IMG/VR virus record: IMGVR_UViG_3300027749_000039
Span: 124,001-188,000 of that record
Reading direction: 5' to 3' (one strand)
DNA: 64,000 bases
Origin: a virus
The translations under genes were made by a program, and so were the position numbers. The stretch's first letter is position 1; every line of letters begins with the position of its first letter. Positions 5,371 through 48,864 of the stretch are shown here, in pieces. Below the pieces are notes generated by a model that saw only the letters and a list, made by a program, of their open reading frames with translations, was not told the DNA's origin and made no database searches.

Positions 5371-5400
5371 TTGTAAATAAAAAACTTTTTCGTATCTTTG
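5371..5400 (+). promoter_or_regulatory. Promoter of tRNA array 1
   Basis: TTG 5371-5373, spacer 19, TATCTTTG 5393-5400. It drives the two Met tRNAs and then the attenuator at 5632-5782. Confidence 0.8.
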
Positions 5401-5433
5401 TTGTATAATAACAAACAATAAGAAATTAAATAT

Positions 5434-5505
5434 AGCGGGATAGAGCAGTGGTAGCTCGCAAGGCTCATAACCTTGAGGTCATTGGTTCGAATCCAGTTCC
5501 TGCTT
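5434..5505 (+). tRNA. tRNA-Met(CAT)
   Basis: Acceptor AGCGGGA/TCCTGCT, anticodon loop CTCATAA, T-loop TTCGAAT. D and anticodon arms are nearly identical to the next tRNA, so the pair is a tandem duplication. Could be elongator, initiator or Ile2. Confidence 0.85.
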
Positions 5506-5520
5506 CAAAAAAAGACATAT

Positions 5521-5592
5521 TGCGGAGTAGAGCAGTGGTAGCTCGCAAGGCTCATAACCTTGAGGTCGTTGGTTCGAATCCAGCCTCCGTTA
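5521..5592 (+). tRNA. tRNA-Met(CAT), 1-72 mismatch
   Basis: TGCGGAG/CTCCGTT leaves T1 opposite T72; an unpaired 1-72 position is a bacterial initiator trait, but the three G-C anticodon-stem pairs of initiators are not present (CAAGG/CCTTG). Loop CTCATAA. Confidence 0.8.
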
Positions 5593-5631
5593 CTAAAAAA
5601 TTAAAAACAATAACAACTTAAAAATTATTTT

Positions 5632-5721
5632 ATGAAACATTTCAGCTCACATAAACATTCGTTTAAATTCTGGTTTAGCAATCAGGGTTCGGTAGAGTTT
5701 TGTTTCAAAAATGCTTCATAA
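5632..5721 (+). CDS. Leader peptide A of tRNA array 1 (His/Phe/Ser/Lys/Trp-rich)
   Basis: 29 codons with 6 Phe, 6 Ser, 4 Lys, 3 His and 1 Trp: 20 of 29 residues belong to isotypes whose tRNAs follow (His x2, Trp x2, Phe, Ser, Lys x3). The peptide starts MKHFSSHKHSFKFWF. Bases 5684-5692 inside the ORF can pair with 5749-5757, the 5' arm of the following terminator, giving a 9-bp antiterminator with two G-U pairs. Predicted role: if charged tRNA is scarce the ribosome stalls early, the antiterminator forms and the array is transcribed. Sequence supports the architecture; regulation is inferred by analogy with amino-acid operon attenuators. Confidence 0.75.
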   Translation: MKHFSSHKHSFKFWFSNQGSVEFCFKNAS

Positions 5722-5743
5722 GAAGTTATTGAAATGAACTAAA

Positions 5744-5782
5744 AATCTCCGAACTTTATATAAAGTTCGGAGATTTTTTTTA
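5744..5782 (+). terminator. Attenuator terminator A
   Basis: Stem AATCTCCGAACTTTA with its complement, followed by a run of T, between leader A and the first tRNA-His. Confidence 0.85.
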
Positions 5783-5785
5783 TAT

Positions 5786-5859
5786 GGTGATATTGGTGTT
5801 AGCGGTTAGCATGGGACCCTGTGAAGGTCTAGGGACGGATTCGAATTCCGTATATCACC
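5786..5859 (+). tRNA. tRNA-His(GTG)
   Basis: Eight-pair acceptor with G-1 encoded opposite C73, loop CTGTGAA, T-loop TTCGAAT. The encoded G-1 is the bacterial His identity element. Confidence 0.85.
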
Positions 5860-5862
5860 CAA

Positions 5863-5981
5863 GAAAAGGTAGATTAAACAAAGAAATTATTTAATTGAAA
5901 CTAGTATAGATTAAATAATCGTATTGATGGTAAAGGTAAGCGGTTAAGCGGAAGATAGTGGTTCGAATCCACTCCTTTTCA
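5863..5981 (+). other. tRNA-like element with large internal hairpin
   Basis: Acceptor GAAAAGG/CCTTTTC and a perfect T-arm (AGTGG-TTCGAAT-CCACT) frame 119 nt. Instead of an anticodon arm there is a 10-bp hairpin ATTATTTAAT/ATTAAATAAT with a 14-nt loop, then a second acceptor-like GTAAAGG and D-loop-like GCGGTTAAGC. May be an interrupted, duplicated or decayed tRNA. Confidence 0.45.
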
Positions 5982-5992
5982 CGAAATAATAT

Positions 5993-6066
5993 GGTGATTG
6001 TAGCTCAATTGGTAGAGCGCAGGTTTGTGGAACCTGAGGTAGCGGGGTCGGAGCTCGTCAATCACC
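5993..6066 (+). tRNA. tRNA-His(GTG), unusual T-loop
   Basis: GGTGATTG/CAATCACC with encoded G-1 and C73, canonical D-arm, loop TTGTGGA. T-loop reads GTCGGAG instead of TTCGAAT. Confidence 0.85.
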
Positions 6067-6069
6067 CAA

Positions 6070-6144
6070 TAAGGTAATCAAGCTAACTTGGTAACGTGGG
6101 AGATTCCAACCCTCCAGTCGTCGGATCGTAACCGGCTGTTCGTG
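6070..6144 (+). pseudogene. Degenerate tRNA-like sequence (Gly TCC or Trp CCA)
   Basis: T-arm GTCGG-ATCGTAA-CCGGC is intact and the anticodon arm around ATTCCAA could give TCC or CCA, but no upstream strand pairs with the 3' acceptor TGTTCGT and the D-stem is poor. The 5' boundary is uncertain. Confidence 0.4.
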
Positions 6145-6155
6145 CAAAATAAAAT

Positions 6156-6228
6156 ACGGGTATGGTGAAAATGGCTATCATTTTTGTCTCCAAAACAAAA
6201 GTTCCGGATTCGAATTCTGGTGCCCGTG
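6156..6228 (+). tRNA. tRNA-Trp(CCA)
   Basis: ACGGGTA/TGCCCGT, G73, anticodon arm TTTGT-CTCCAAA-ACAAA, T-loop TTCGAAT. Confidence 0.85.
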
Positions 6229-6235
6229 CTAAAAT

Positions 6236-6307
6236 GGTGTTGTAACATAGAGGTTTATGTGTTGATCTGAAAAATCAAAAATGCCAGATCGTTACTGGCC
6301 GACACCA
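6236..6307 (+). tRNA. tRNA-Phe(GAA)
   Basis: GGTGTTG/CGACACC, D-stem ACAT/ATGT, anticodon arm TTGAT-CTGAAAA-ATCAA, T-stem GCCAG/CTGGC with T-loop ATCGTTA (A54, T58). All stems are perfect, so the odd T-loop is not decay. Confidence 0.9.
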
Positions 6308-6370
6308 CAAAAATAAATTAAAAAAGGAAGACGCACCCATTTTATATATAAGTAAATAACAAATATAAAA

Positions 6371-7249
6371 ATGGGTGCGAATTCAAAAGAATGGACAGAA
6401 AAGGAAAAAGAAATACTTTTTAAATATTTTCCGAGTATGGGTAGTAATTATTGTTCAGAATTAACAGGAAGAACAAAAAGAGCTTGTCAAGAAATGGCAA
6501 AAAAATTAAAATTGAAGAGAGATTTAGATAAGTATGAAGATAAAGAAAAATTAGAGGAGTTAGTTAAAGGTTGTAAATCATATACAGAATGTGTAATAAA
6601 ATTGGGGTTATCTCCCAGATGTTCTGGTAATTTTCAGACTATCAAAAAATATATCACAATATATAATATAGATATTTCACATTTTGAAAATGGATTTCAA
6701 ATAGGCAACAAACCTCAAAATAAGAAAGAATTATCAGAAGTTTTAATAGAAAACTCTTTTTTTAGCAGAACTCATCTTAAAGAGAGACTATATAAAGAGG
6801 AATTAAAAAAGAAAGAATGTGAGATATGTGGAATTGGTGAAGATTGGTTTAATGGAACTAAAATAGTCCATATTTTAGACCATATAAATGGTGAGCCTTA
6901 TGATAATCGTCTTGAAAATTTAAGAATCGTTTGTCCTAATTGTAATTCAACATTAGAAACAAATTGTGTTGGGAATAAAGTTAATAAAATATATGATTCT
7001 AAAAAAGATGAATATAAAAGTGAAAAAACACATAAAAAATGTAATTGTGGTAAAATAATTTTGAAAGAAAGTAAATTTTGTTCAGAATGCAATGCCAAAA
7101 GTAAAAGAAAAATTATTAATAGACCAACATTTGAAGAATTAGTTAAGTTAATAGAAGAAAATGGTAATACTGGAACAGGTAAAATATACGGCGTTAGCGA
7201 AGCTGTCATAAGAAAATGGTTAAAACAATATAAAAATAAATTAGTATAG
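6371..7249 (+). CDS. HNH homing endonuclease inside tRNA array 1
   Basis: 292 residues. N-terminal Myb/HTH-like segment (EWTEKEKEILFKYFPS), then an HNH core: CEICGIGEDW, HILDHINGEP, NRLENLRIVCPNC. The C-terminus has a zinc ribbon (CNCGK and CSEC) and an HTH tail NRPTFEELVKLIEENGNTGT...IRKWLKQY. This tail is shared with the endonucleases at 34280 and 37300, which have different or diverged cores. It splits array 1 between tRNA-Phe and tRNA-Trp, a typical homing location. Target unknown; a tRNA gene is likely. Confidence 0.88.
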   Translation: MGANSKEWTEKEKEILFKYFPSMGSNYCSELTGRTKRACQEMAKKLKLKRDLDKYEDKEKLEELVKGCKSYTECVIKLGLSPRCSGNFQTIKKYITIYNIDISHFENGFQIGNKPQNKKELSEVLIENSFFSRTHLKERLYKEELKKKECEICGIGEDWFNGTKIVHILDHINGEPYDNRLENLRIVCPNCNSTLETNCVGNKVNKIYDSKKDEYKSEKTHKKCNCGKIILKESKFCSECNAKSKRKIINRPTFEELVKLIEENGNTGTGKIYGVSEAVIRKWLKQYKNKLV

Positions 7250-7262
7250 AATATACTAAAAT

Positions 7263-7337
7263 ACAGACTAGTCTATGGTAGTCGGCGGAACTCCAAATCC
7301 CGTGTGACTCGAGTCAGTTCAATTCTGGCAGTCTGTG
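7263..7337 (+). tRNA. tRNA-Trp(CCA), second copy
   Basis: ACAGACT/AGTCTGT, G73, loop CTCCAAA with one A-C mismatch in the anticodon stem, T-stem GTCAG/CTGGC, T-loop TTCAATT. D-arm is short and the variable region about 10 nt. Confidence 0.65.
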
Positions 7338-7347
7338 CTAATAAATT

Positions 7348-7431
7348 GGAAAGTCCTAATTAGGAGTAGTTAGCCGTTTTGAAAACGGTGAAGGTGTAAT
7401 AGCCGTGGGGGTTCGAGTCCGTCACTTTCCG
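7348..7431 (+). tRNA. tRNA-Ser(TGA)
   Basis: GGAAAGT/ACTTTCC, G73, anticodon arm GCCGT-TTTGAAA-ACGGT, long variable arm, T-loop TTCGAGT. Class II as expected for Ser. Confidence 0.85.
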
Positions 7432-7442
7432 CAAAATAAAAT

Positions 7443-7519
7443 ACGGGTTTCGTCTAATATTTAAGACACCTCCCGGCAAGGGAGTTAATGTTGTAAGGGT
7501 GAAAATCCTACAACCCGTG
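7443..7519 (+). tRNA. tRNA-like, anticodon GCA or GGC, no U33
   Basis: Acceptor ACGGGTT/AACCCGT and D-stem GTCT/AGAC are good. The anticodon loop CGGCAAG has G at position 33. The T-arm has a bulge and loop GTGAAAAT. Cys (GCA) or Ala (GGC) is possible; it may be a pseudo-tRNA. Confidence 0.5.
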
Positions 7520-7535
7520 CAAAAAGATTAAAATT

Positions 7536-7571
7536 ATGAAACAATATAAACAGATTAAACAAAAACAATAA
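7536..7571 (+). CDS. Leader peptide H (MKQYKQIKQKQ) before Lys tRNAs
   Basis: 11 codons with 4 Lys (all AAA) and 4 Gln, 33 nt before three consecutive tRNA-Lys genes. No T-tailed terminator follows. Instead 7585-7609 can form a 9-bp hairpin GGATGCTTA/TAAGCATTC that includes the 5' acceptor strand of the first tRNA-Lys, so it could control tRNA folding or processing. Short, hence less certain than the other leaders. Confidence 0.5.
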   Translation: MKQYKQIKQKQ

Positions 7572-7603
7572 GTTAGGCTCCTATGGATGCTTAACAAATA
7601 TAA

Positions 7604-7675
7604 GCATTCGTAACTCAGAGGCAGAGTATTCGGCTTTTAACCGAAGTGGCGAGATTTCAAAATTCTCCGGATGCA
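7604..7675 (+). tRNA. tRNA-Lys(TTT)
   Basis: GCATTCG/CGGATGC, anticodon arm TTCGG-CTTTTAA-CCGAA, T-loop TTCAAAA; A73 followed by CCA. Confidence 0.88.
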
Positions 7676-7681
7676 CCAAAA

Positions 7682-7753
7682 CCGCTTGTAGCAAACTGGT
7701 GTAGGCAAGAGTCTTTTAAACTCTGGGGCTGGGTTCGACTCCCGGCAGGCGGA
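7682..7753 (+). tRNA. tRNA-Lys(TTT)
   Basis: CCGCTTG/CAGGCGG, anticodon arm AGAGT-CTTTTAA-ACTCT, T-arm CTGGG-TTCGACT-CCCGG. Confidence 0.85.
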
Positions 7754-7758
7754 CAATA

Positions 7759-7830
7759 GATTTTATATGTCAATGGTTAGACTAGCAGACTCTTAATCTG
7801 CGGATCTGAGTTCGAGTCTCAGTGAAATCA
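7759..7830 (+). tRNA. tRNA-Lys(CTT)
   Basis: GATTTTA/TGAAATC, anticodon arm GCAGA-CTCTTAA-TCTGC, T-arm CTGAG-TTCGAGT-CTCAG. Confidence 0.9.
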
Positions 7831-7846
7831 CAAAAAATTTTTAAAA

Positions 7847-9115
7847 ATGTTAGAAATAAAATTATTTAGGCAAAATAAGGACCTAATTATAGAAGGACTT
7901 AAAAAGAAAAATTTTAAGCAACTTAATTTAGTTGATGAAATTATTAAATTGGATGAAGATTTAAGAAAATTAAAACAGGAAACTGAAAATTTAACTTCTG
8001 TTATTAATAAAAATAATAGCGAAATTGCAAGATATATTAAAACAGATGCAGTTAAGGTAGAAAATATTAAAACTCATAATATTATTTTAAATGAAAAAAT
8101 TGAGGAATTAACTAATATACTAAATCAAACTGAAAACGAGTTATTGGATAATTTAATTCAATTACCAAATCTTCCAAATCAAATTGTAGAAATAGACAAT
8201 GGTAATGAAGCAACTAATGGTAATGTTATTATAAGAGAAAACTTAACTCAGTGTACACAAGGTAAACCTCATTGGGAAGTAATTAAAGATTTAAATATAG
8301 TTAGTTTTGAACTAGGAACTAAAATTACTGGTGCTGGGTTTCCTGTTTATATCGGAAAAGGCGCAAGATTACAAAGAGCTTTAATTCAATATTTTTTAGA
8401 TTATAATACTAATGCTGGTTATACAGAATATAATATACCATTAATGGTTAATTATGATTCTGCATATGGTACAGGACAACTCCCTGATAAAGAAGGTCAA
8501 ATGTATTATGCTGAAAAGGATAATTTATACTTAATTCCAACAGCAGAAGTTCCTTTAACTAATATCTTTAGAGATGAAATAGTTAATTTGCCCATAAAAA
8601 TGACAGGACATAGTGCTTGTTTTAGAAGAGAAGCTGGCGCACATGGTAAAGAAGTAAGAGGGTTAAATCGAGTTCATCAATTTGAAAAAGTTGAAATAGT
8701 TCAATTAGTTCAACCTGATAAAAGTTATGAAGTATTGGAAGAAATGGTTTTACATGTTGAGAACTTGATAAAAAGCTTAGAATTACCATATAGAATACTT
8801 AAATTAAGTGGCACAGATATGAGTTTTGCATCTGCTTTAACTTATGACTTTGAAGTATATAGTGCGGCTCAAGACAGATGGTTAGAAGTAAGTTCTGTGA
8901 GTAATTTTGAAACTTTCCAATCTAATCGTATGAAAATTAGATTTAAAGAAGATAAAAAGAACAAATTAGTTCATACTTTAAATGGAAGTTCTTTAGCATT
9001 ACCAAGAATAATGGCTTGCTTATTAGAAAATAATCAAACACATGAAGGTATAAAAATACCAGAAGTATTAATACCGTATTACGGTGACAAATTTTTAACA
9101 AATGGAAAATTATAA
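7847..9115 (+). CDS. serS: Seryl-tRNA synthetase
   Basis: 422 residues, full bacterial length. The N-terminal 110 residues are the antiparallel coiled coil that grips the long variable arm of tRNA-Ser (KLDEDLRKLKQETENLTSV). The class II catalytic domain has TGAGFPVYIGKGARLQRAL (motif 1 region), ACFRREAGAHGKEVRGLNRVHQFEKVE (split here as ACFRREAG and RVHQFEKVE; motif 2) and NGSSLALPRIMACLLENNQ (motif 3). It starts 16 nt after the last tRNA-Lys, so array 1 and serS are probably one transcript. The phage also encodes four Ser-type tRNAs (7348, 9524, 9745, 9837). Confidence 0.96.
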   Translation: MLEIKLFRQNKDLIIEGLKKKNFKQLNLVDEIIKLDEDLRKLKQETENLTSVINKNNSEIARYIKTDAVKVENIKTHNIILNEKIEELTNILNQTENELLDNLIQLPNLPNQIVEIDNGNEATNGNVIIRENLTQCTQGKPHWEVIKDLNIVSFELGTKITGAGFPVYIGKGARLQRALIQYFLDYNTNAGYTEYNIPLMVNYDSAYGTGQLPDKEGQMYYAEKDNLYLIPTAEVPLTNIFRDEIVNLPIKMTGHSACFRREAGAHGKEVRGLNRVHQFEKVEIVQLVQPDKSYEVLEEMVLHVENLIKSLELPYRILKLSGTDMSFASALTYDFEVYSAAQDRWLEVSSVSNFETFQSNRMKIRFKEDKKNKLVHTLNGSSLALPRIMACLLENNQTHEGIKIPEVLIPYYGDKFLTNGKL

Positions 9116-9347
9116 AAAATTAATAGAGAAATATAAAGTTGAAATAGTAGATTATATTATTTCTTCAAAAGACCAATTAGAAGAATACCGTAAAAAGTAT
9201 TTAGGCGCAAATGGAATTATAAAACAAGTTTATAATCAATTAAAACAAGTTCCTGCTGAAAAAAGAAAACAAGCAGGAGAATTGTTAAGAGGATTAAAAG
9301 ATTGTGCTGAAAATAAATATGAAAATTCTTTTGTTAATTCAAAATAA
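9102..9347 (+). CDS. Orphan PheS-type N-terminal tRNA-binding domain
   Basis: 81 residues resembling the coiled-coil N-terminal domain of the PheRS alpha subunit: EEYRKKYLGANGIIKQVYNQ, then VPAEKRKQAGELLRGLKD, corresponding to the family pattern YLGKKG...LPxEERxxxGxxxNxxK. No catalytic class II domain follows and none was found in the window. Overlaps the serS end by 14 nt. Either a remnant of a lost PheRS or a stand-alone tRNA-binding protein; the intact frame favours function. Confidence 0.7.
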   Translation: MENYKKLIEKYKVEIVDYIISSKDQLEEYRKKYLGANGIIKQVYNQLKQVPAEKRKQAGELLRGLKDCAENKYENSFVNSK

Positions 9348-9409: not shown

Positions 9410-9466
9410 ATGAAAACAATATCATCGTCTAGTCGCAGTAGTTTAACTTTGGAAATCCAGAGATGA
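9410..9466 (+). CDS. Leader peptide B of tRNA array 2 (MKTISSSSRSSLTLEIQR)
   Basis: 18 residues with 6 Ser (TCA, TCG, TCT, AGT x3) and 2 Arg. The array behind it encodes Ser(GCT), Arg(ACG), a Ser-type tRNA and Ser(GGA): the leader is rich in exactly these two amino acids. Bases 9454-9460 near the end of the ORF can pair with 9491-9497 in the terminator stem-loop, giving a competing 7-bp helix. It lies 20 nt upstream of the terminator and within 300 nt of the end of serS. Attenuation by charged Ser/Arg tRNA level is inferred. Confidence 0.82.
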   Translation: MKTISSSSRSSLTLEIQR

Positions 9467-9485
9467 TAGTGTATGTATATACTTG

Positions 9486-9517
9486 AAGCCTTGGATTGTA
9501 AAATTCAAGGCTTTTTT
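9486..9517 (+). terminator. Attenuator terminator B
   Basis: AAGCCTTG/CAAGGCTT stem with T-tract, between leader B and tRNA-Ser(GCT). Confidence 0.88.
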
Positions 9518-9523: not shown

Positions 9524-9611
9524 GGTGAGTTACTCAAGTGGTCAAAGAGGCTTGTTTGCTAAACAAGTAGGACGGTAAAACGTTGCGTGGGTTCGAACCC
9601 CACACTCACCG
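9524..9611 (+). tRNA. tRNA-Ser(GCT)
   Basis: GGTGAGT/ACTCACC, G73, anticodon arm CTTGT-TTGCTAA-ACAAG, long variable arm, T-arm GTGGG-TTCGAAC-CCCAC. Confidence 0.9.
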
Positions 9612-9617
9612 CCAAAA

Positions 9618-9653
9618 TATACAGATAATTGCGGGTTCGAGACCCGTTCTGGA
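9618..9653 (+). pseudogene. tRNA 3' fragment (T-arm minihelix)
   Basis: GCGGG-TTCGAGA-CCCGT T-arm flanked by CAGA/TCTG, without D or anticodon arm. Probable remnant of a deleted tRNA. Confidence 0.5.
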
Positions 9654-9664
9654 TACAAAAATAT

Positions 9665-9738
9665 GGTCTCATCGTTCAATGGATTTAGGATACTTGGCTA
9701 CGAACTAAGAGATTGGGGTTCGAATCCCTATGAGACTA
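9665..9738 (+). tRNA. tRNA-Arg(ACG)
   Basis: GGTCTCA/TGAGACT, anticodon arm CTTGG-CTACGAA-CTAAG, T-loop TTCGAAT. A34 would need deamination to inosine to read CGN. Confidence 0.87.
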
Positions 9739-9744
9739 CTAATA

Positions 9745-9832
9745 GGAAAGTTGGCAGAGCGGTTTAATGCGCTGGCACTGAAGCCGGTGACTGGCAAAAG
9801 CCGGTCCGTGAGTTCGAATCTCATACTTTCTT
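9745..9832 (+). tRNA. tRNA-Ser-like (TGA), altered anticodon loop
   Basis: GGAAAGT/ACTTTCT, the same 5' acceptor as Ser(TGA) at 7348. Long variable arm GACTGGC-AAAA-GCCGGTC. The loop is 6 nt (ACTGAA) or 8 nt depending on stem register, with C before TGA in place of U33. T73 is unusual for Ser. Confidence 0.7.
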
Positions 9833-9836
9833 ATAT

Positions 9837-9926
9837 GGAGAAGTAAAACGAAATTGGTATCGTCCCTGATTGGAAATCAGGTTATCGGGTCAAACTGGTA
9901 TGTAGGTTCGAGTCCTATTTTCTCCG
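9837..9926 (+). tRNA. tRNA-Ser(GGA)
   Basis: GGAGAAG/TTTCTCC, G73, anticodon arm CCTGA-TTGGAAA-TCAGG, long variable region, T-loop TTCGAGT. Confidence 0.88.
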
Positions 9927-9970
9927 CAATGTTTCAAAAAAAGAAATATACTTAATAATACACAATTAAA

Positions 9971-11091: not shown

Positions 11092-11967
11092 ATGAAATGG
11101 ACAAAAGAAAAATGTAAGGAGATTTCAAATTTATTTGATAATATAAGTGACTTTGAGAAAGAGTATAGAGGGTCTTATATGTCTGCTAGAAGAAATGGTT
11201 GGTTAGAAGAAATAACCAAACATATGAAAAAAAGAGAGACCTTGACCGAGAAAAGGTGTCATGAGATTTCATCAAAATTTGAAACTAAAACAAAATTATG
11301 TGAACATAATAGTTCTGTTTATAAAAAAATTATGAAGAACAAATGGCTATATATGTTTTCTCATATGGAAAATAATAATAGTAGTGAAGATGATAGATGT
11401 ATATACGCATACGAATTTAATGATAACAGTGTTTATGTAGGATTAACAAAAAATGTTAAAACTAGAAATAATTTGCATATGAAACATGGTAGTGTTTTTG
11501 AACATATAAGAATATGCAATGATTTTAAGTTAATAATCTTAACAGATTATTTACCAGTTTATGAATCAAAATTAAAGGAAGATGAATATCTTAATTATTA
11601 TAAAAATAATGGATGGAAAGTCTTAAACAAGATAAAAACTGGTGGTATAGGTAGTTGCGGATATTTGAATAGGACATCATATTGGATAAAAGAAAAATGT
11701 ATTGAAGAAGCATTAAAATATACAAATAGAAGCGAATTTCAATATAATTCGGGAAGTGCATATCGCTCTGCTCAAAAAAATAAATGGTTAGATGAAATAT
11801 GTTCGCATATGCAACCACTCCGAAATTACAAGGGATATTGGACAAAGAAAAAATGTGAAGAAGAATCTTTGAAATATAAAAATAAAAATCAATTTCAAAA
11901 AAATAATAGTGCCGCATATATGTGTTCATACAAAAATGGTTGGCTAAATGAATTTTATAAAAGTTAA
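11092..11967 (+). CDS. GIY-YIG-like protein with repeated KCxE...NGWL modules
   Basis: 291 residues. Four copies of a roughly 35-residue module (for example WTKEKCKEISNLF then ARRNGWLEEITKHM) surround a central GIY-YIG-like domain: CIYAYEFNDNSVYVGLTKN about residue 100, with a late Glu. The modules look like DNA-binding repeats seen in phage homing endonucleases. Preceded by an AT-rich TTTAATATATA element. An isolated single module is encoded at 51469. Homing nuclease is the likely role. Confidence 0.72.
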   Translation: MKWTKEKCKEISNLFDNISDFEKEYRGSYMSARRNGWLEEITKHMKKRETLTEKRCHEISSKFETKTKLCEHNSSVYKKIMKNKWLYMFSHMENNNSSEDDRCIYAYEFNDNSVYVGLTKNVKTRNNLHMKHGSVFEHIRICNDFKLIILTDYLPVYESKLKEDEYLNYYKNNGWKVLNKIKTGGIGSCGYLNRTSYWIKEKCIEEALKYTNRSEFQYNSGSAYRSAQKNKWLDEICSHMQPLRNYKGYWTKKKCEEESLKYKNKNQFQKNNSAAYMCSYKNGWLNEFYKS

Positions 11968-11973
11968 AGTGAA

Positions 11974-12630
11974 ATGAAAAAATACGATAAGATTCCATAT
12001 TGGAATAAAGGATTATTTGACTCTGATTGTATCGGGTTTAATAAAGAAGATGGTTCAAATATGAGATTTGAGTGGTCAAAAAAACGTGGGTTTTATAAGT
12101 TTGGAACTCGTAATGTAATGATTAATGAGAAAGATGAAAACTTTGGAAAAGCTATTCCTTTATTTTTAGAAAAATACGGCGAAGATTTACCAAGAGTATT
12201 TGTTAATAAATATAAAAAAGTAGAAAACTTTGTTGTATTTGGTGAATATGTTGGTGAAAATTCCTTCGCTGGATGGCATGACCCAAATGATAAAATGGAT
12301 ATTATTTTATTTGATGTTAATCAATATAAAAAGGGGTTCATTTCTCCATATGAGTTTTTAGATAATTTTGGACATTTATCAATTCCTTCTGTTATTTATC
12401 AAGGTAAATATACACAAGAATTAATAGACAATGTTAGAAAGAATGTTTTTAACTTAAAAGAAGGTTTAATTACTAAAGGAATTACTTATACTAAAAAAGA
12501 AGGTGAAGCAATTTGGCAAGTAAAAGTTAAGACTAACGACTGGCTTAAAAAAGTAAAAGAAAAGCTAGGTGATAAAGCTTTAGCTGATGAATTAAATGGA
12601 GATAAATCATTAATAGCAGAATACATATAA
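11974..12630 (+). CDS. ATP-dependent RNA ligase (copy 1)
   Basis: 218 residues. Nucleotidyltransferase motif I is KEDGS (Lys about 24, the AMP-accepting Lys), motif III FGEYVG about residue 92, motif IV EGLITKG, motif V WQVKVKT. These match RNA ligases of the Rnl2/RNA_ligase superfamily. Short for the family, with no extra C-terminal domain visible. It lies two genes from a second RNA ligase at 13325. Together with the 5' kinase at 56456 it could repair cleaved tRNAs, as T4 Pnkp and Rnl1 do; that pairing is inference. Confidence 0.85.
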   Translation: MKKYDKIPYWNKGLFDSDCIGFNKEDGSNMRFEWSKKRGFYKFGTRNVMINEKDENFGKAIPLFLEKYGEDLPRVFVNKYKKVENFVVFGEYVGENSFAGWHDPNDKMDIILFDVNQYKKGFISPYEFLDNFGHLSIPSVIYQGKYTQELIDNVRKNVFNLKEGLITKGITYTKKEGEAIWQVKVKTNDWLKKVKEKLGDKALADELNGDKSLIAEYI

Positions 12631-18908: not shown

Positions 18909-18915
18909 CCAAATT

Positions 18916-35586: not shown

Positions 35587-35592
35587 CAAAAT

Positions 35593-35665: not shown

Positions 35666-35702
35666 CCACTACTGATCAGAATCCAGTGATTCAGATCTAA
35701 AA

Positions 35703-35778: not shown

Positions 35779-35784
35779 CAAAAT

Positions 35785-35857
35785 GCTAAAGTGTCTGAAT
35801 GGTTGAGGAACTTTCTTGGTATGAAAGATAATATCGGTTCGAATCCGTTCTTTAGCT
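35785..35857 (+). tRNA. tRNA-Thr(GGT)
   Basis: GCTAAAG/CTTTAGC, anticodon arm CTTTC-TTGGTAT-GAAAG, T-loop TTCGAAT. Confidence 0.87.
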
Positions 35858-35863
35858 CTTAAT

Positions 35864-35936
35864 GGCGCCTTGGTCGAGTGGTTATAGGCGCAGGTCTGCA
35901 AAACCTGATACATTGGTTCAATTCCAGTAGGCGCCT
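35864..35936 (+). tRNA. tRNA-Cys(GCA)
   Basis: GGCGCCT/AGGCGCC, T73, CAGGT-CTGCAAA-ACCTG, T-arm ATTGG-TTCAATT-CCAGT. Confidence 0.92.
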
Positions 35937-35949
35937 CAAATTAAATAAA

Positions 35950-37033: not shown

Positions 37034-37102
37034 ATGAAAAACATCAATCTAAATATGAATTTGCTTAATCTAATGGAAACATTGGACAGGATTCTTATAT
37101 AG
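37034..37102 (+). CDS. Leader peptide E of tRNA array 5 (Leu/Asn/Met/Ile-rich)
   Basis: 22 codons: 6 Leu (CTA, TTG, CTT), 5 Asn, 2 internal Met, 3 Ile. The array encodes Leu(TAG), Leu(AAG), Leu(CAA) and a CAT tRNA. The best antiterminator of the set: 37083-37093 (TGGACAGGATT) is an almost exact copy of the terminator 3' arm and can pair with 37129-37139 over 11 bp. An extra hairpin AACTTTA/TAAAGTT sits between stop and terminator. A ribosome reaching the stop would cover the segment and permit termination. Confidence 0.83.
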   Translation: MKNINLNMNLLNLMETLDRILI

Positions 37103-37126: not shown

Positions 37127-37160
37127 AAAATCCTGTTCACAATCTGAACAGGATTTTTTT
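37127..37160 (+). terminator. Attenuator terminator E
   Basis: AATCCTGTTCA-CAATC-TGAACAGGATT and T-tract before tRNA-Leu(TAG). Confidence 0.92.
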
Positions 37161-37163: not shown

Positions 37164-37239
37164 GGCACTCTATCCCAACAAGAGCAGAGGACTCAGCTTT
37201 AGAACCTGAGAGTTGTGGGTTCAAATCCCACGAGTGTCA
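37164..37239 (+). tRNA. tRNA-Leu(TAG), short variable loop
   Basis: GGCACTC/GAGTGTC, loop TTTAGAA with C31-C39 mismatch, T-arm GTGGG-TTCAAAT-CCCAC. No long variable arm, unlike bacterial tRNA-Leu. Confidence 0.75.
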
Positions 37240-37299
37240 CACAACTCGAACTCTGGTAGATAAAAAATAAGGGACTGTTATGTATATAATATATACATA

Positions 37300-38133
37300 A
37301 TGGAAAATAAAAAATTTATTGAAATATGCCAAACAGCCGTAAGTATGGCTGAGGCAGCTAGAATTATAGGAATTGGATTTAATTCTTTTAAGAAAAAAGC
37401 ATTAATATTAAATTGTTATAAAACTAATCAAAATTGGAGAAAAGGTAAAACTGTTTTAAATGATGATAGAATAGAAAGTAAACATACTTTATTTTGTGAA
37501 AATTCTTCCGCAAGAAGAGAATATATTAAAGGTTTAATTATTAAACATAATTTAATTGAATATAAATGTTTTGATTGTGGATTAAAAAATGAATGGAATG
37601 GGAAAATTTTAAACTTACAGTTAGACCATATAAATGGTGTAAAAAATGATAATAGACTTGAAAATTTAAGATTTATGTGCCCTAATTGTCATTCACAAAC
37701 AGAAACATGGTGTAAAAGTAAAGGTAATTCAATAAATAATTTAGATATAGAAATCTTAATTAATACTATAAATAAGTCATTTTCTATGACTAAATTAATT
37801 GATAAATTAGGAATCTATGATACACAAAATAATAGAAAGAAAATCAAAAAAATAATGATAGAAAATAATCTATCTTTTGAATTTGATAAACAGGAAAAGA
37901 ATAAAATAAATAGTTGTAAGTGTGGTAAATCTATTAAAAAATCAAGTAAAATGTGTTCTAAATGTTGGCAGATAGAACAAAGAAAAGTTAATAGACCTAC
38001 ATATGAGCAGTTAAAAAAAGAAGTAGAAGAAATTGGATATTCAGCAACAGGTAGAAAATATAATGTTTCTGATAATTGCATAAGAAAATGGTTAAAAGCA
38101 TATGTACCCCAATTGGCAGAGGGACACCGTTAA
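37300..38133 (+). CDS. HNH homing endonuclease inside tRNA array 5
   Basis: 277 residues. N-terminal HTH (AVSMAEAARIIGIGFNSFKK), HNH core with CFDCGLKNEW, LQLDHINGVKNDNRLENLRF and MCPNCHSQ, then zinc ribbon CKCGK/CSKC and the shared tail NRPTYEQLKKEVEEIGYSAT...IRKWLKAY. The last 12 codons run into tRNA-Leu(AAG): 36 nt are both coding sequence and tRNA. Confidence 0.88.
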   Translation: MENKKFIEICQTAVSMAEAARIIGIGFNSFKKKALILNCYKTNQNWRKGKTVLNDDRIESKHTLFCENSSARREYIKGLIIKHNLIEYKCFDCGLKNEWNGKILNLQLDHINGVKNDNRLENLRFMCPNCHSQTETWCKSKGNSINNLDIEILINTINKSFSMTKLIDKLGIYDTQNNRKKIKKIMIENNLSFEFDKQEKNKINSCKCGKSIKKSSKMCSKCWQIEQRKVNRPTYEQLKKEVEEIGYSATGRKYNVSDNCIRKWLKAYVPQLAEGHR

Positions 38134-38172
38134 GAGCGGTGATAGGTGTCGGATCGTTGCCGACTATATGCA
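38098..38172 (+). tRNA. tRNA-Leu(AAG), short variable loop
   Basis: GCATATG/TATATGC, anticodon arm CACCG-TTAAGAG-CGGTG, T-arm GTCGG-ATCGTTG-CCGAC. Its first 36 nt overlap the endonuclease ORF. Confidence 0.82.
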
Positions 38173-38240
38173 CAAAGATTGCGCTGATGAGAATTGTAGG
38201 TGCAATTTCTAGTTGTAGAGTATTTCACAATACTCTCTCT

Positions 38241-38314
38241 ACCGAAGTGATGTAATTGGTAAACATCTTATTTTCAAAAAATAAGTTTTGAGGGATCGTA
38301 GCCCTTCTTCGGTA
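38241..38314 (+). tRNA. tRNA-Leu(CAA), short variable loop
   Basis: ACCGAAG/CTTCGGT, loop TTCAAAA on stem TTATT/AATAA, T-arm GAGGG-ATCGTAG-CCCTT. No long variable arm. The 38175-38240 stretch holds a GAGTATT/AATACTC hairpin only. Confidence 0.8.
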
Positions 38315-38372
38315 CTATCATTGAAATAGTTGTATATTATGATAAATGGTATAGTTATGATATAATTAATAA

Positions 38373-38457
38373 GCCGCTATGAGCAGATGTGGTAATTGCG
38401 ACGGACTCATAATCCGTTTTCTGTAAGATAGTGTTGGTTCGAGTCCAACTAGCGGTA
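38373..38457 (+). tRNA. tRNA(CAT) with long variable arm: Met, or Ile2
   Basis: GCCGCTA/TAGCGGT, anticodon arm ACGGA-CTCATAA-TCCGT, about 15-nt variable arm, T-arm GTTGG-TTCGAGT-CCAAC. A class II shape is odd for a CAT tRNA. Confidence 0.78.
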
Positions 38458-38512
38458 CAGACATAATAAATATAAAAAGTTATTATGATCACATAAAAGA
38501 AAATTTATTAAA

Positions 38513-38907: not shown

Positions 38908-40098
38908 ATGAAAAAAAAACAAGGATGGATTAAATCCATAAGACAATCCAAAGGATTAATATTTGTAGCAGTTACAGACGGAGCAAAAGATTTCCAAGTA
39001 ACAATAGTAGAAGCCGAATGTAAAATATACGGCGAACTAAAAGTAGGAGCTTCTTTTGAAGCACAAGGTAAAGATTCAACAACCCCAAAAGGATTATTTG
39101 AATTTAAAGCATCTGAGTTTAAGATAATAGGTAGTTCCGATGACAGCTACCCTATACAGCCCAAGTCCCATGGTATGGATTTTCTACGTTCTATTTTAGA
39201 ATATAGAGGAAAAACTAAACAATTTCAAGCAATTTGGAAAATTAGGCATCATTTAACACAGGCTATACATCAATTTTTTGATAGTGAAGGATTTTATCTC
39301 TACCAAATTCCTATCATTATAGACAGCGATTGTGAGGGTGCCGGTGAAACTTTCCAAGTAAAAACTGAATGGTTAGATAGAGTTTTAACCGTATCAGGTC
39401 AGCTACATGGTGAAGTGGGTGCCATGAGTCTTGGTAAAATTTATTCATTTAGTCCATCTTTTAGAGCAGAAAAATCAGCCACCAAAAAACACTTAAGTGA
39501 GTTTTGGCATCTTGAACCAGAAATAGGATGGTATAGCATGGAAGATACTATGAGATTAGCAGAAAAATCTATAAAATTCTTTATCACATATGTATTAGAA
39601 AAATGTGAATATGAATTTAAACAATTAGGTATAACTACTGAACATCTAACAGATGTTATAGAAAAAGAATGGAAAACTATTAAATACGAAGAAATAGTTA
39701 AACTATTTGGTGTTAAATATGGTGAGGATATAAACTCGGAAACAGAACAGAAAATTGTAACACATTTTGGTTGCCCTGTGTTTATAACACATTATCCTGA
39801 ATCATTAAAGCCCTTTTACATGAAGAAAATAGGAGGTGTTGCTTTTTGTTTTGATTTGATTTTTGAATCAATAGGGGAATTAATTGGAGGTTCTGAGCGA
39901 GAAGATTCTTATGATAAATTAAAACAGTCTATGATAGATTCTGGTTTAGATTTAGATAAAATGGATTGGTATTTAAACACCAGAAAACACGGTTCAATTC
40001 CACATAGTGGATATGGAATGGGATTTGAACGTCTGTTGATGTTTATTACAAAAGTTCCAAAAATACATGATGTTATACCTTTTCCTGTATCTTATTAA
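38908..40098 (+). CDS. asnS: Asparaginyl-tRNA synthetase
   Basis: 396 residues. OB-fold anticodon domain at the N-terminus (GWIKSIRQSKGLIFVAVTDG), then class II core: IPIIIDSDCEGAGETFQV, motif 2 SPSFRAEKSATKKHLSEFWH and LEPEIGWY, motif 3 HSGYGMGFERLLMFIT. Bacterial AsnRS is about 465, so inserts are trimmed. The GAGETFQV block is AsnRS rather than AspRS type. Two tRNA-Asn genes lie in array 4. Confidence 0.94.
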   Translation: MKKKQGWIKSIRQSKGLIFVAVTDGAKDFQVTIVEAECKIYGELKVGASFEAQGKDSTTPKGLFEFKASEFKIIGSSDDSYPIQPKSHGMDFLRSILEYRGKTKQFQAIWKIRHHLTQAIHQFFDSEGFYLYQIPIIIDSDCEGAGETFQVKTEWLDRVLTVSGQLHGEVGAMSLGKIYSFSPSFRAEKSATKKHLSEFWHLEPEIGWYSMEDTMRLAEKSIKFFITYVLEKCEYEFKQLGITTEHLTDVIEKEWKTIKYEEIVKLFGVKYGEDINSETEQKIVTHFGCPVFITHYPESLKPFYMKKIGGVAFCFDLIFESIGELIGGSEREDSYDKLKQSMIDSGLDLDKMDWYLNTRKHGSIPHSGYGMGFERLLMFITKVPKIHDVIPFPVSY

Positions 40099-47085: not shown

Positions 47086-47181
47086 ATGAAAAACATTCTA
47101 AACATACAAAACCCTCAACAACCGCAAGTTGATGTCGATCAGGATCCTGATACGATGAGGACTAACCATGTTAGAATGTAA
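47086..47181 (+). CDS. Leader peptide F of tRNA array 6 (Gln/Asp/Pro-rich)
   Basis: 31 codons: 5 Gln, 4 Asp, 3 Pro, concentrated in the block NPQQPQVDVDQDPD. The array encodes Asp x3, Pro, Gln x3, and GlnRS. Bases 47160-47166 (GACTAAC), near the end of the ORF, can pair with 47210-47216 in the terminator 5' arm. Same architecture as leaders A, B, C and E. Confidence 0.84.
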   Translation: MKNILNIQNPQQPQVDVDQDPDTMRTNHVRM

Positions 47182-47206
47182 ATGAATTATATTACATTTT
47201 TAATAG

Positions 47207-47237
47207 CCAGTTAGTCGAAAGATTAACTGGTTTTTTT
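47207..47237 (+). terminator. Attenuator terminator F
   Basis: CCAGTTAGTC-GAAA-GATTAACTGG and T-tract before the Asp tRNAs. Confidence 0.9.
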
Positions 47238-47261
47238 GTTTTATATAGCGAGAATTAGTAA

Positions 47262-47350
47262 GGTTACGGCGAATAATGGCTGGTTCGCTACTCTGTCACA
47301 GTAGTAAGTAGGTTAAAACCGAAAAGAGGGTTCGATTCCCTTCGTAACCG
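47262..47350 (+). tRNA. tRNA-Asp(GTC) with long variable region
   Basis: GGTTACG/CGTAACC, G73, CTACT-CTGTCAC-AGTAG, T-arm GAGGG-TTCGATT-CCCTT. The variable region is about 20 nt and contains GGTT-AAA-ACC, unusual for Asp. Confidence 0.82.
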
Positions 47351-47355
47351 CAAAA

Positions 47356-47429
47356 GGCACCATATATCAATTGGTTAGATTTTCCGCCTGTCACATGGAA
47401 GGCTACGGGTTCGAGCCCCGTTGGTGTCG
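47356..47429 (+). tRNA. tRNA-Asp(GTC)
   Basis: GGCACCA/TGGTGTC, G73, loop CTGTCAC with a C-A mismatch in the anticodon stem, T-arm ACGGG-TTCGAGC-CCCGT. Confidence 0.83.
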
Positions 47430-47434
47430 CAAAA

Positions 47435-47508
47435 GGTCTGTTAGTAGAAATGGATACAATATCTCCCTGTCACGGAGAAGGTTGCCGGATCGTACCCGGT
47501 ACAGACCG
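47435..47508 (+). tRNA. tRNA-Asp(GTC)
   Basis: GGTCTGT/ACAGACC, G73, TCTCC-CTGTCAC-GGAGA, T-arm GCCGG-ATCGTAC-CCGGT (A54, T58). Confidence 0.87.
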
Positions 47509-47513
47509 CTAAA

Positions 47514-47586
47514 CGAGTATGAAGTGTAACCAGGTTGCACACGAATTTTGGGAATTCGTAGAGACGTTCGAATCGTACATGCTCGA
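47514..47586 (+). tRNA. tRNA-Pro(TGG)
   Basis: CGAGTAT/ATGCTCG, anticodon arm CGAAT-TTTGGGA-ATTCG, T-loop TTCGAAT on a weak T-stem. Confidence 0.8.
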
Positions 47587-47639
47587 CAAAAAATCACTGC
47601 TTCGATTAAACTTTCTCCGACAATTTTAATATATATCTT

Positions 47640-48569
47640 ATGGATATAATTAAAATTATAAATGAAAGTTTTTCCATTAATGATTTAGCCAAAAAATTAT
47701 ATGGTTATTCTAATGGCAAGAGCAATAAAAAAGCAATAGAAGTTTTAAAACAAAACGGATTTGATATATCTTTTTTTGACGGAAAAAGTAAAAATAGAAA
47801 ATATCAAAAAATAAAAATTATTTGTCCTATTTGTTTTGTGGAATTTGAAACAACTGAAAATGGTAAAAAAACATGTTCTTCTTCATGTTCTAATTCTTAT
47901 TTTCAACACGGGAAAAATAATCCTGATTTTGATCAAGAAAAATATGAGGAAAGATATAAAAAAGTATCTAATACATTAAAAACTAATATTCCTTGGAATA
48001 AAGGCAAAAATGATAAGGCAAAAATAAAAACATGTCTAAATTGTAAAATTGAATTTGAACCTAAAACACACACACAGAAATATTGTTGCAAAAAATGCCA
48101 ATTTTCATGTAAAGAGTATAGAAAATTATTAAGTGACAATGTTAAAGAAAGAATAAAAAATGGAACACATAAAGGTTGGCAATCAAGAAATATTGAGAGT
48201 TATCCTGAAAAATTCTTTAAAAAAGTATTAAAAAATAATGGTATTGAATATATACCAAATAAAACAATAATAAAAAAAGACTATAATATAGAAGGCAATG
48301 GTAATTATTTTTTAGATTTTTATATAAAAGAAGGAAATATAGATTTAGAAATAGACGGCAAGCAACATGATTATAGGGTCGAACATGATAATGAACGAGA
48401 TAACAATTTATCAAAGCATTTCAACATTTATAGAATAAAATGGCAGTCAATAAATAGCGAAACAGGAAAACAATATATAAAAAAAGAAATTAAAAAATTT
48501 ATAAAATATTATAACAAAATGAAAAACTTAACTTTACAACAACAGCAACAAATGATTAAACTAGATTGA
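47640..48569 (+). CDS. Zinc-finger PD-(D/E)xK homing endonuclease in array 6
   Basis: 309 residues. HTH-like N-terminus, two zinc fingers (CPICFVEF/CSSSC and CLNCKIEF/CCKKC), then a Vsr/DUF559-like nuclease: YFLDFYIKEGNIDLEIDGKQ with the ExD pair. Its last 16 codons are the Gln leader peptide G read in frame. It separates Asp/Pro from Gln tRNAs. Free-standing homing is the likely role. Confidence 0.82.
   Translation: MDIIKIINESFSINDLAKKLYGYSNGKSNKKAIEVLKQNGFDISFFDGKSKNRKYQKIKIICPICFVEFETTENGKKTCSSSCSNSYFQHGKNNPDFDQEKYEERYKKVSNTLKTNIPWNKGKNDKAKIKTCLNCKIEFEPKTHTQKYCCKKCQFSCKEYRKLLSDNVKERIKNGTHKGWQSRNIESYPEKFFKKVLKNNGIEYIPNKTIIKKDYNIEGNGNYFLDFYIKEGNIDLEIDGKQHDYRVEHDNERDNNLSKHFNIYRIKWQSINSETGKQYIKKEIKKFIKYYNKMKNLTLQQQQQMIKLD
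48519..48569 (+). CDS. Leader peptide G (MKNLTLQQQQQMIKLD) before Gln tRNAs and GlnRS
   Basis: 16 codons with five consecutive Gln codons (CAA, CAA, CAG, CAA, CAA), beginning ATGAAAAAC like leaders D-F. A terminator follows at 48591, then Gln(TTG) x2, Gln(CTG) and glnS. Bases 48567-48573, overlapping the stop, can pair with 48593-48600 with one bulge, competing with the terminator. The homing endonuclease frame runs in frame into it, so the peptide can be made from its own ATG or as the endonuclease C-terminus. Confidence 0.85.
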   Translation: MKNLTLQQQQQMIKLD

Positions 48570-48590
48570 TGGTATTGTATAGTTATGTAT

Positions 48591-48622
48591 AAACCTATCA
48601 GTCTAAACTGATAGGTTTTTTT
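48591..48622 (+). terminator. Attenuator terminator G
   Basis: AAACCTATCAGT-CTAA-ACTGATAGGTTT and T-tract between leader G and tRNA-Gln. Confidence 0.92.
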
Positions 48623-48624
48623 AT

Positions 48625-48710
48625 GCTCCTCTGGTGTAATTGGTTAACATACTTGATTTTGAGTCAAGGGACAGGTAATGCAAGTCAGGGTTCGAATCCT
48701 TGGAGGAGTA
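48625..48710 (+). tRNA. tRNA-Gln(TTG) with long variable region
   Basis: GCTCCTC/GAGGAGT, CTTGA-TTTTGAG-TCAAG, about 17-nt variable region (unusual for Gln), T-arm CAGGG-TTCGAAT-CCTTG. Confidence 0.84.
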
Positions 48711-48715
48711 CAAAT

Positions 48716-48787
48716 AGTCCAATAGTGTAACGGTTAGCACAACTCTCTTTGACAGAGTTAGTCTTGGTTCGAATCCAGGTTGAACTA
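48716..48787 (+). tRNA. tRNA-Gln(TTG)
   Basis: AGTCCAA/TTGAACT with one mismatch, ACTCT-CTTTGAC-AGAGT, T-arm CTTGG-TTCGAAT-CCAGG. Confidence 0.87.
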
Positions 48788-48793
48788 CTACAA

Positions 48794-48864
48794 TGTTCTA
48801 TGATGTAATGGTAGCATAAGAGCTTCTGATTCTCTTTGTATTGGTTCGAGTCCAATTAGAACAA
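48794..48864 (+). tRNA. tRNA-Gln(CTG)
   Basis: TGTTCTA/TAGAACA, loop TTCTGAT within AGAGC/TCTCT, T-arm ATTGG-TTCGAGT-CCAAT. 18 nt before glnS. Confidence 0.84.

Follow-up and report, generated by a model that had tools for sequence, protein, structure and literature searches.

Why should every larger array of transfer RNA (tRNA) genes in a phage genome stand behind a very short open reading frame (ORF) and a transcription terminator? The question is raised by a stretch of viral DNA of 64,000 nucleotides (nt), bases 124001–188000 of the 190,602-base IMG/VR virus record IMGVR_UViG_3300027749_000039, which we call the window. It carries 45 tRNA genes, every one on the plus strand (ARAGORN default); Ser(TGA) in array 1 and a Pro(TGG) close to 47511 were called only by relaxed ARAGORN, and the arrays cover all 20 amino acids when this Pro is counted and 19 otherwise. 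All seven arrays of at least three tRNAs show the same order of an ATG ORF of 16–33 codons, a hairpin with a T run and then the tRNAs, the stop codon lying 18–27 nt 5' of the hairpin and the hairpin 7–27 nt from the first tRNA (Table 1). The codons of these leader ORFs match the tRNAs behind them, and each element is very probably a ribosome-mediated transcription attenuator of a tRNA operon, as judged from the sequence features set out below.

A sequence-only reading of the window had listed seven short ORFs, from 5632 to 48519, before terminators and tRNA genes. All are present with the right coordinates and peptides, and a fixed rule that ignores composition (the longest ATG ORF of 9–48 codons with its stop 10–40 nt before a hairpin) recovered seven of seven. 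That every array has a leader holds for the arrays of at least three tRNAs and has to be narrowed for two Met tRNAs (5434–5593) and one Gly tRNA (25461), which have no leader of their own. The central claim, that leader composition tracks the array, was borne out: among the 5,040 possible assignments the true one alone scores highest, with relaxed as with default ARAGORN calls. Some details changed. The ORF at 18662, which had been listed without a match, matches the Tyr, Glu, Gly and Ala tRNAs behind it; the leader described as Gln/Asp/Pro has Asp and Pro in its own array, while the matching Gln tRNAs sit behind the next leader, so that its Gln match would need read-through of two attenuators. 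The Ser of array 1 and the Pro of array 6 are visible to relaxed and not to default ARAGORN. The short ORF at 48519 exists and is not free-standing, being the in-frame tail of ORF 47640–48569; it and its relative on stretch L001 (L, stretches; G, records) are the only two such cases among 87 leaders examined, none of the other 85 forming the end of an ATG ORF of more than 60 codons.

The same sets are found in relatives identified by GlnRS in IMG/VR and in the public huge-phage genomes LR745206.1 and LR756502.1. Across 51 sites in 11 records (relaxed ARAGORN), cognate residues made up 0.397 of the leader in comparison with 0.181 when leaders were permuted within their genome, and the observed value was reached in 0 of 20,000 permutations. 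Allowing the first tRNA within 450 nt added two sites and a leader-motif search 13, giving 66 sites in 17 records; as the 13 came via one leader motif, their Phe/His/Lys/Ser/Trp members are not independent. That search returned 22 matches, 11 before a terminator and tRNAs and 11 at loci without a tRNA array. With default ARAGORN the 66 sites gave 0.374 against 0.184 (0/20,000). The ORF frame was the richest in cognate codons at 64 of the 66 sites (0.405 vs. 0.195 and 0.137 in the other frames), and 19 of the 20 amino acids were enriched at an uncorrected p < 0.05, Thr marginally (0.044) and with Val as the exception (0.07). The sequence-only reading had suggested searching related huge phages for such ORFs and had named a missing codon–tRNA correlation in homologous arrays as fatal to it; the search produced the 66 sites, and the correlation holds with 0/20,000 permutations in each of two sets. 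As a bacterial control, 42 tRNAs on 20 stretches of two genomes (reached via Cloacibacterium and Chitinophagaceae records) gave six calls of an ORF with a terminator, representing five distinct ORFs, and none of the calls had cognate composition as judged by eye. The KHFSKxxKWF pattern, which stands for one leader family only, had ten matches in the genome collection and none before a tRNA array; SerRS used as bait in viral contigs gave no match, and the other human-gut and Acinetobacter records carried no more than a single tRNA on the stretch examined and were hence uninformative.

We then counted arrays of at least three tRNAs with an ORF and a terminator within 450 nt, disregarding composition and covering, G000 excepted, only the tRNA-bearing stretches of each record. 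In the six related records, 40 of 43 arrays have both (G000 7/7, G001 7/8, G002 6/7, G004 6/6, LR745206 7/8, LR756502 7/7). The remaining counts were 2/2 in G005, 4/6 in LR756501, 6/7 in LR756504, 3/4 in LR756500, 1/2 in Lak-A1, 2/4 in Gurke, 1/2 in phage G, 0/2 by rule in phiCbK, 1/2 in KVP40 and 1/1 in Atu_ph07. Rearranged arrays provide natural experiments: in G001, G002, LR745206, LR756502 and L065 the Tyr/Glu tRNAs and the Ile/Gly/Ala tRNAs each have an array and a leader to themselves, whereas a single array behind a fused leader holds both groups in the window, G004, L072 and G014 (L089). Split or fused arrays mostly carry correspondingly split or fused leaders. In the same vein, the Leu array of L001 has an extra Arg(CCT) tRNA, and in its leader AGA and AGG replace the window's Lys and Ile codons.

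The match extends to codon choice. For amino acids with at least three codons, the tRNAs of the array itself read 255 of the 314 cognate control codons (216 expected). Arg codons before CGN-reading arrays are CGN in 11 cases and AGR in two, and before arrays with TCT or CCT anticodons CGN in one and AGR in nine (p 0.0006). Pooled over the 66 sites, control codons lean to those rare in the window's genome: GTG 0.84 vs. 0.08, GCG 0.62 vs. 0.08, CCG 0.48 vs. 0.07, CGC 0.42 vs. 0.03 and ACG 0.32 vs. 0.04. A bias of control codons chosen for sensitivity is predicted by theory (PMC1183508). The same lean would also be expected if the leaders sensed slow translation in general, for example at rare codons, and their match reflected the phage's slow codons with no dedicated feedback; we find this improbable, as the match is lost when leaders are reassigned to other arrays of the same genome, fused leaders stand on fused arrays and the Arg isoacceptors are split.

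In the RNA, the 3' part of the leader can pair with the 5' arm and loop of the terminator. This antiterminator duplex beat 200 dinucleotide shuffles (p ≤ 0.05) at 36 of 51 sites, where about 2.5 were expected, and is individually significant for four of the seven window leaders. When leaders were swapped, the pairing of a leader with its own terminator (−12.9 kcal/mol) was stronger than that of relatives' leaders (−10.6 kcal/mol; 62 sites, p 2e-7), and the own leader was the best of its family at 24 of the 62 sites. In the Phe/His/Lys/Ser/Trp family (12 sequences), 97.1% of the antiterminator cells are paired and four of six pairs have changed on both sides, and the terminator, which shares the middle segment, has 93.8% of cells paired and four of eight pairs changed on both sides; the columns were picked after the alignment was viewed, the window row is misaligned, and the pair-by-pair count covers one family. 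Sliding the antiterminator alignment by one column reduced the pairing to about 60%.

RNA lacking the third arm folds into the antiterminator at 64 of 66 sites, a figure that is partly circular because pairing was the criterion by which the arm had been picked. When a ribosome occupies the stop codon, the terminator remains at all 66, and at all 66 the arm is within reach of that ribosome, assuming a 14-nt shadow. With arm positions set by base pairing alone, the cognate fraction averaged over 11 families is 0.37–0.50 at codons −15 to −11 from the arm, 0.70–0.90 at −10 to −4, 0.45 at −3, 0.27 at −2 and 0.07–0.38 from −1 on, against roughly 0.1–0.3 in permuted data. A ribosome whose A site has stalled between −10 and −4 would leave the arm exposed, and one at the stop would cover it; the profile is the one predicted by attenuation and not by a composition artefact. 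The attenuation that the sequence-only reading had deduced from ORFs, codons and terminators is supported by antiterminator pairing, helix covariation in one family, control-codon position and the mostly split or fused leaders, none of these tests having overturned it.

The proposed circuit would work as follows. RNA polymerase would make the leader and a ribosome translate it. With ample cognate charged tRNAs, the ribosome would reach the stop codon and cover the antiterminator arm, and the terminator would halt transcription before the first tRNA. If any cognate charged tRNA were scarce, the ribosome would stall 4–10 codons upstream of the arm, which could then pair with the 5' arm of the terminator and let transcription enter the tRNAs and, in several operons, the synthetase gene. 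Where a leader combines several amino acids, it would be an OR gate controlling the whole array. The attenuators may also act in tandem, given that no promoter-like motif lies close 5' of leaders 1 and 7 and both are behind other units, and tandem action would explain the Gln codons in the Asp/Pro leader. Leader translation, stalling, read-through and feedback, in short everything dynamic, we infer from the static features above.

Transcription might instead start behind the terminators, these closing upstream units while the arrays have their own promoters and the ORFs are by-products. Some relatives have about 80–400 nt between terminator and first tRNA, room enough for a promoter, but the short distances at all seven window sites leave little. 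A promoter-like TAnnTTTG motif lies within 200 nt 5' of the leader at 50 of 66 sites, in comparison with 0.20 of random stretches, and leader and terminator covary; all this makes separate array promoters very improbable. The motif is linked to Bacteroidota and suggests a host from that phylum. Direct sensing of tRNA by a T-box-like element or another riboswitch is less credible still: T-boxes too sense uncharged tRNA before synthetase genes (PMC2965389), but the 40 Rfam matches of the window at gathering thresholds are all tRNA, and the match is made by codons in one frame, not by one specifier.

Attenuator-like leaders also occur in distant phages, which were picked by similarity of GlnRS, DNA polymerase or SerRS or for their tRNA richness, not by leaders, and scanned with a wider rule (gap 0–60 nt, tRNA within 450 nt). 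At 21 sites in six of them the cognate fraction was 0.434 against 0.237 permuted (0/20,000), or 0.415 against 0.223 with default ARAGORN (0/20,000); the ORF frame was the best in 19 and the antiterminator had p ≤ 0.05 in 16. We judged two of the 21, L115 and the second L120 site, not to be leaders. The 735-kilobase genome LR756501.1 has FTPAPAVAFRRGTGTGTGTCVPAG before Arg, Pro, Ala, Thr, Val and Gly tRNAs, Brevundimonas phage Gurke has YRQNVQNIRVVRFYR before Tyr, Phe, Val, Ile, Gln, Asn and Arg tRNAs, and Bacillus phage G has CSWFEFDTDFTDVFYCEY, annotated as gp86, before Cys, Asp, Phe, Tyr, Glu, Thr, Ser and Trp tRNAs; LR756504.1 and LR756500.1 contribute further sites under the wider rule. 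For KVP40, Atu_ph07, Lak-A1 and the first Gurke site composition is uninformative and other frames score about equally. Prevotella phage Lak-A1 probably shares the design, with a single many-amino-acid leader (L118, minus strand, 4381; antiterminator p 0.005) before a 20-tRNA array spanning too many amino acids for composition to be informative. A fifth LR756501 leader and both leaders of Caulobacter phage phiCbK were missed by the rule and found by eye. On the minus strand of LR756501.1 (L093, about 11668–12042), we also noted by eye an L7/L12-like ORF between the leader-terminator MVRKYNDYCINDKLKMLIG and an array of Ile, Cys, Asp, Asn, Tyr and His tRNAs.

In phiCbK, leader 1 is annotated as gp083. 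With relaxed ARAGORN it is 0.93 cognate to Pro, Thr, Lys, Leu, His, Ala and Ser tRNAs and 0.02 to the next array; the Thr and His tRNAs are called at the relaxed threshold only and Ala by ARAGORN only, and they are absent from the record and from Rfam at gathering score. None of Thr, His, Ala and Arg is among the tRNAs reported in the genome paper (PMC3556154). With annotated tRNAs only, leader 1 has 0.52 for its own and 0.02 for the other array, and leader 2 has 0.39 and 0.10. The antiterminator is not significant for leader 1 (p 0.16) and has p 0.002 for leader 2. Terminators of both leaders are annotated in the public record JX100813, in which the second leader lies near 51341 and terminated RNA would be predicted to end at 49745–49769 and 51465–51502. 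A third annotated terminator (L130:4081–4180), which precedes Glu and Asp tRNAs, has no clear leader, the short ORF MTHLLTRYEREATGLDTTTA around it being doubtful. We give practically no credence to chance matches of low-complexity, AT-rich ORFs: every leader is well supplied with Asn and Thr, but the permutation and frame tests reject this explanation for window, related and distant sites, as do the shuffles, and the design recurs in the GC-rich phiCbK.

As a negative control we took 114 background terminators with no tRNA within 700 nt, of which 29 had a rule ORF and nine an antiterminator at p ≤ 0.05. Seven of these nine precede synthetase genes and one (L052:11658) an RNA ligase gene, the ninth being L003:11719, so that the intended control yielded more leader cases. 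Leaders with Asp pairs stand before AspRS in L010, L048 and L023, an INNRNR leader before AsnRS and a weakly ArgRS-like gene in L050, a VVVV leader before a ValRS-like gene in L010 and an LLLPL leader before a LeuRS-like gene in L022. The leader before the HisRS-like gene of L048 has just one His, and the L052:11658 leader is related to it; the HisRS-, LeuRS- and ValRS-like proteins score below NCBIfam cut-offs. On L005, where there is no tRNA on the stretch, a Gln leader precedes an RNA-repair HAD protein (551–961) and GlnRS. RNA ligase genes lie near leader operons at 11974–12630 (plus strand) in the window, L048:10320–11033 and L052:12183–12836; that of the window, about 2 kb 3' of array 2, is at most a candidate member of the array 2 operon. 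We also considered whether leader 5 has its Asn codons on account of the AsnRS in its operon; this is weak, as the related locus L001 keeps the Asn codons and has no AsnRS homologue on its stretch.

These genes bear on what the attenuators would be for. The purpose we infer, and the weakest step of the argument, is the replacement of tRNAs that run out in infection, for example after cleavage by host defences. The same attenuators could serve to signal host amino-acid starvation, the tRNA and synthetase genes being merely co-regulated. The circuit would sense charged tRNA and be blind to the cause of the shortage, and synthetases lie in or near the operons, both of which suit starvation; on the other hand, no amino-acid biosynthesis gene was found directly behind leaders among the proteins scanned, a survey that is not exhaustive, extra tRNA brings no relief of an amino-acid shortage, and RNA ligase or RNA-repair HAD genes lie near leaders (L048, L052, L005 and 11974 in the window). 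As more tRNA cannot cure starvation and RNA-repair functions are close by, we favour tRNA replacement and regard starvation as an unlikely, if still serious, alternative.

Several results weigh against attenuation in the service of tRNA replacement. A shortage of amino acids would trigger the same circuit with nothing gained from extra tRNA. The members of a leader family are related, and site counts are therefore not independent. The window antiterminators of leaders 2, 3 and 6 miss significance (p 0.57, 0.08 and 0.18), and the swap test is nearly flat for the Asp/Pro (−11.9 vs. −11.5) and Gln (−12.7 vs. −11.9) families. There is no isoacceptor excess for Ser (46/73 vs. 47.8 expected), Pro (16/27 vs. 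18.4) or Val (19/19 vs. 19.0), and Gly (18/23 vs. 17.3) we also count as none; the split of Leu TTA goes in the same direction as that of Arg, but with p 0.10. The leader of G013 (L087:9397) has Cys and Tyr codons, and its Ile, Gly, Ala and Glu array has neither. Finally, none of the 12 arrays of at least three tRNAs in GAP32 (0/4), XacN1 (0/3), T4 (0/1), pT24 (0/1), G006 (0/1) and G007 (0/2) has a leader by the rule.

Table 1. Leaders, antiterminator arms, terminators, tRNA arrays and adjoining synthetase genes in the window (p, antiterminator duplex against shuffles)
Feature	Positions	Strand	Remarks
Leader ORF 1 MKHFSSHKHSFKFWFSNQGSVEFCFKNAS	5632–5721	+	Cognate to His, Trp, Phe, Ser, Lys tRNAs (and SerRS) downstream
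Antiterminator arm (segment 2), leader 1	5683–5702	+	p 0.015; arm covaries in relatives (window row misaligned there, adds little)
Terminator hairpin 1 and T run	5741–5778	+	
tRNA array 1: His, His, Trp, Phe, Trp, Ser (relaxed threshold only), Lys, Lys, Lys	5787–7831	+	Inserted HNH-like ORF 6371–7249
Seryl-tRNA synthetase	7847–9115	+	Immediately 3' of array 1
Leader ORF 2 MKTISSSSRSSLTLEIQR	9410–9466	+	Cognate to Ser, Arg tRNAs
Candidate antiterminator arm, leader 2	9453–9461	+	p 0.57, no better than shuffles
Terminator hairpin 2	9485–9514	+	
tRNA array 2: Ser GCT, Arg ACG, Ser-like tRNA read as CTGA, Ser GGA	9524–9927	+	
Leader ORF 3 MKTTIITTQVIGAYEAGYAYEGTSHGVGKLCS	18662–18760	+	Contains GAYEAGYAYEG; cognate to Tyr, Glu, Gly, Ala tRNAs
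Antiterminator arm, leader 3	18737–18751	+	p 0.08
Terminator hairpin 3	18783–18813	+	
tRNA array 3: Tyr x2, Glu x3, Gly, Ala and others	18828–21339	+	
AlaRS N-terminal-like protein	21461–22240	+	3' of array 3; below NCBIfam cut-off
Leader ORF 4 MKNINRNNNTINLVINNVNTLCVIRGVMGLSLL	33809–33910	+	Cognate to Leu, Ile, Arg, Val, Asn, Thr, Cys tRNAs
Antiterminator arm, leader 4	33884–33898	+	p 0.005
Terminator hairpin 4	33938–33964	+	
tRNA array 4: 12 tRNAs, 7 isotypes	33982–35937	+	
Leader ORF 5 MKNINLNMNLLNLMETLDRILI	37034–37102	+	Stop codon TAG; cognate to Leu x3 and CAT tRNAs
Antiterminator arm, leader 5	37082–37094	+	p 0.005
Terminator hairpin 5	37127–37157	+	
tRNA array 5: Leu TAG, Leu AAG, Leu CAA, CAT	37164–38458	+	Inserted HNH-like ORF 37300–38133
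Asparaginyl-tRNA synthetase	38908–40098	+	Downstream of array 5
Leader ORF 6 MKNILNIQNPQQPQVDVDQDPDTMRTNHVRM	47086–47181	+	Cognate to Asp, Pro (Gln farther on)
Candidate antiterminator arm, leader 6	47159–47174	+	p 0.18
Terminator hairpin 6	47202–47235	+	
tRNA array 6: Asp x3, Pro (relaxed threshold only)	47262–47590 (end approximate)	+	
Leader 7 MKNLTLQQQQQMIKLD	48519–48569	+	Cognate to Gln; internal ATG in tail of ORF 47640–48569
Antiterminator arm, leader 7	48561–48574	+	p 0.005
Terminator hairpin 7	48591–48618	+	
tRNA array 7: Gln TTG, TTG, CTG	48625–48865	+	
Glutaminyl-tRNA synthetase	48882–50471	+	Immediately 3' of array 7

Other features of these regions are recorded here in their own right. 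Met (CAT) tRNAs lie 5' of an attenuator and outside its control at 5434–5593 in the window and at L034:18074, L049:6870, L053:4838 and L065:10257. Relaxed ARAGORN called amber-reading (CTA) tRNAs at L026:14412 (= G000:54412), L040:6132, L041:5630, L097:5585 and 5663, L119:4520, L133:9047 and 9130, and L139:8273; none of them stands behind a leader found here, and leader 5 of the window stops at TAG. The two HNH-like ORFs inserted in tRNA arrays score below Pfam cut-offs, and a DUF559 ORF (47640–48569, 309 amino acids) and a GIY-YIG ORF (11092–11967) in or near arrays score above them; ORFs 34280–35086 and 19875–20510 resemble array-inserted ORFs by eye and have no nuclease match. Stand-alone synthetase pieces comprise a PheRS N-terminal domain (9102–9347) and the AlaRS N-terminal-like protein behind array 3. 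A class I/II aminotransferase (51617–52723 in the window) and a glutamate-synthase-like protein (L027:7204–8754) are also encoded in phage genomes.

Ribosome-mediated attenuation is familiar from amino-acid operons with their trp, his, leu, thr and ilv leaders, and in pheST of E. coli a leader peptide precedes a synthetase gene. T-box riboswitches sense aminoacylation before synthetase genes by binding tRNA directly, with no leader translation. The elements described here share with the amino-acid attenuators the leader ORF of cognate codons, the alternative 2:3 and 3:4 pairing, the intrinsic terminator and the biased control codons (PMC1183508). Unlike those, they are phage-borne, have tRNA arrays as targets and often combine several amino acids in one leader; in the window they jointly cover all 20 (Pro at the relaxed threshold only), and the genes found behind them are tRNAs and synthetases, not makers of the sensed amino acid. 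The sensing of aminoacylation is shared with T-boxes, but the window has no Rfam T-box structure. Cognate leaders before GlnRS, AspRS, AsnRS, ValRS-like and LeuRS-like genes resemble those of hisS/hisZ and pheST, which are bacterial and control an enzyme, whereas here tRNA genes are the main target. The histidine leader peptides precede hisS/hisZ in bacilli (PMC2965389). Phage tRNAs have been described as replacing or evading tRNAs destroyed by host nucleases (PMC10264068, PMC11555353), and the passages cited concern which tRNAs are carried, not a regulated supply. Among the matches listed in open-licence PMC, titles and abstract openings mention no attenuated tRNA genes and no leader peptides of phage tRNA arrays; the main text of the huge-phage paper PMC7162821 contains neither "attenuat" nor "leader peptide", and that of the phiCbK genome paper PMC3556154 neither "attenuat" nor "leader". 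We conclude that the phenomenon is real and conserved, and that a mechanism of known kind would here serve a new purpose on a far broader scale.

The reason for phages to carry tRNAs has been under debate for decades. If a shortage of their own tRNAs is what turns the arrays on, the phage would itself reveal which of them are running out, and the ideas of codon compensation and counter-defence become testable through read-through. Attenuation would be extended to tRNA genes and to sensors of several amino acids, and "hypothetical proteins" such as phiCbK gp083 and phage G gp86 would gain a likely function; the presence of leaders in cultured phages brings an experimental test within reach. More tentatively, and with rather less than even confidence, we suggest that distant giant phages may share a surveillance network for up to 20 amino acids, in which arrays would stay silent until translation stalls for want of their own tRNAs and would then be re-issued, together with synthetases and RNA repair, against defences that destroy tRNA.

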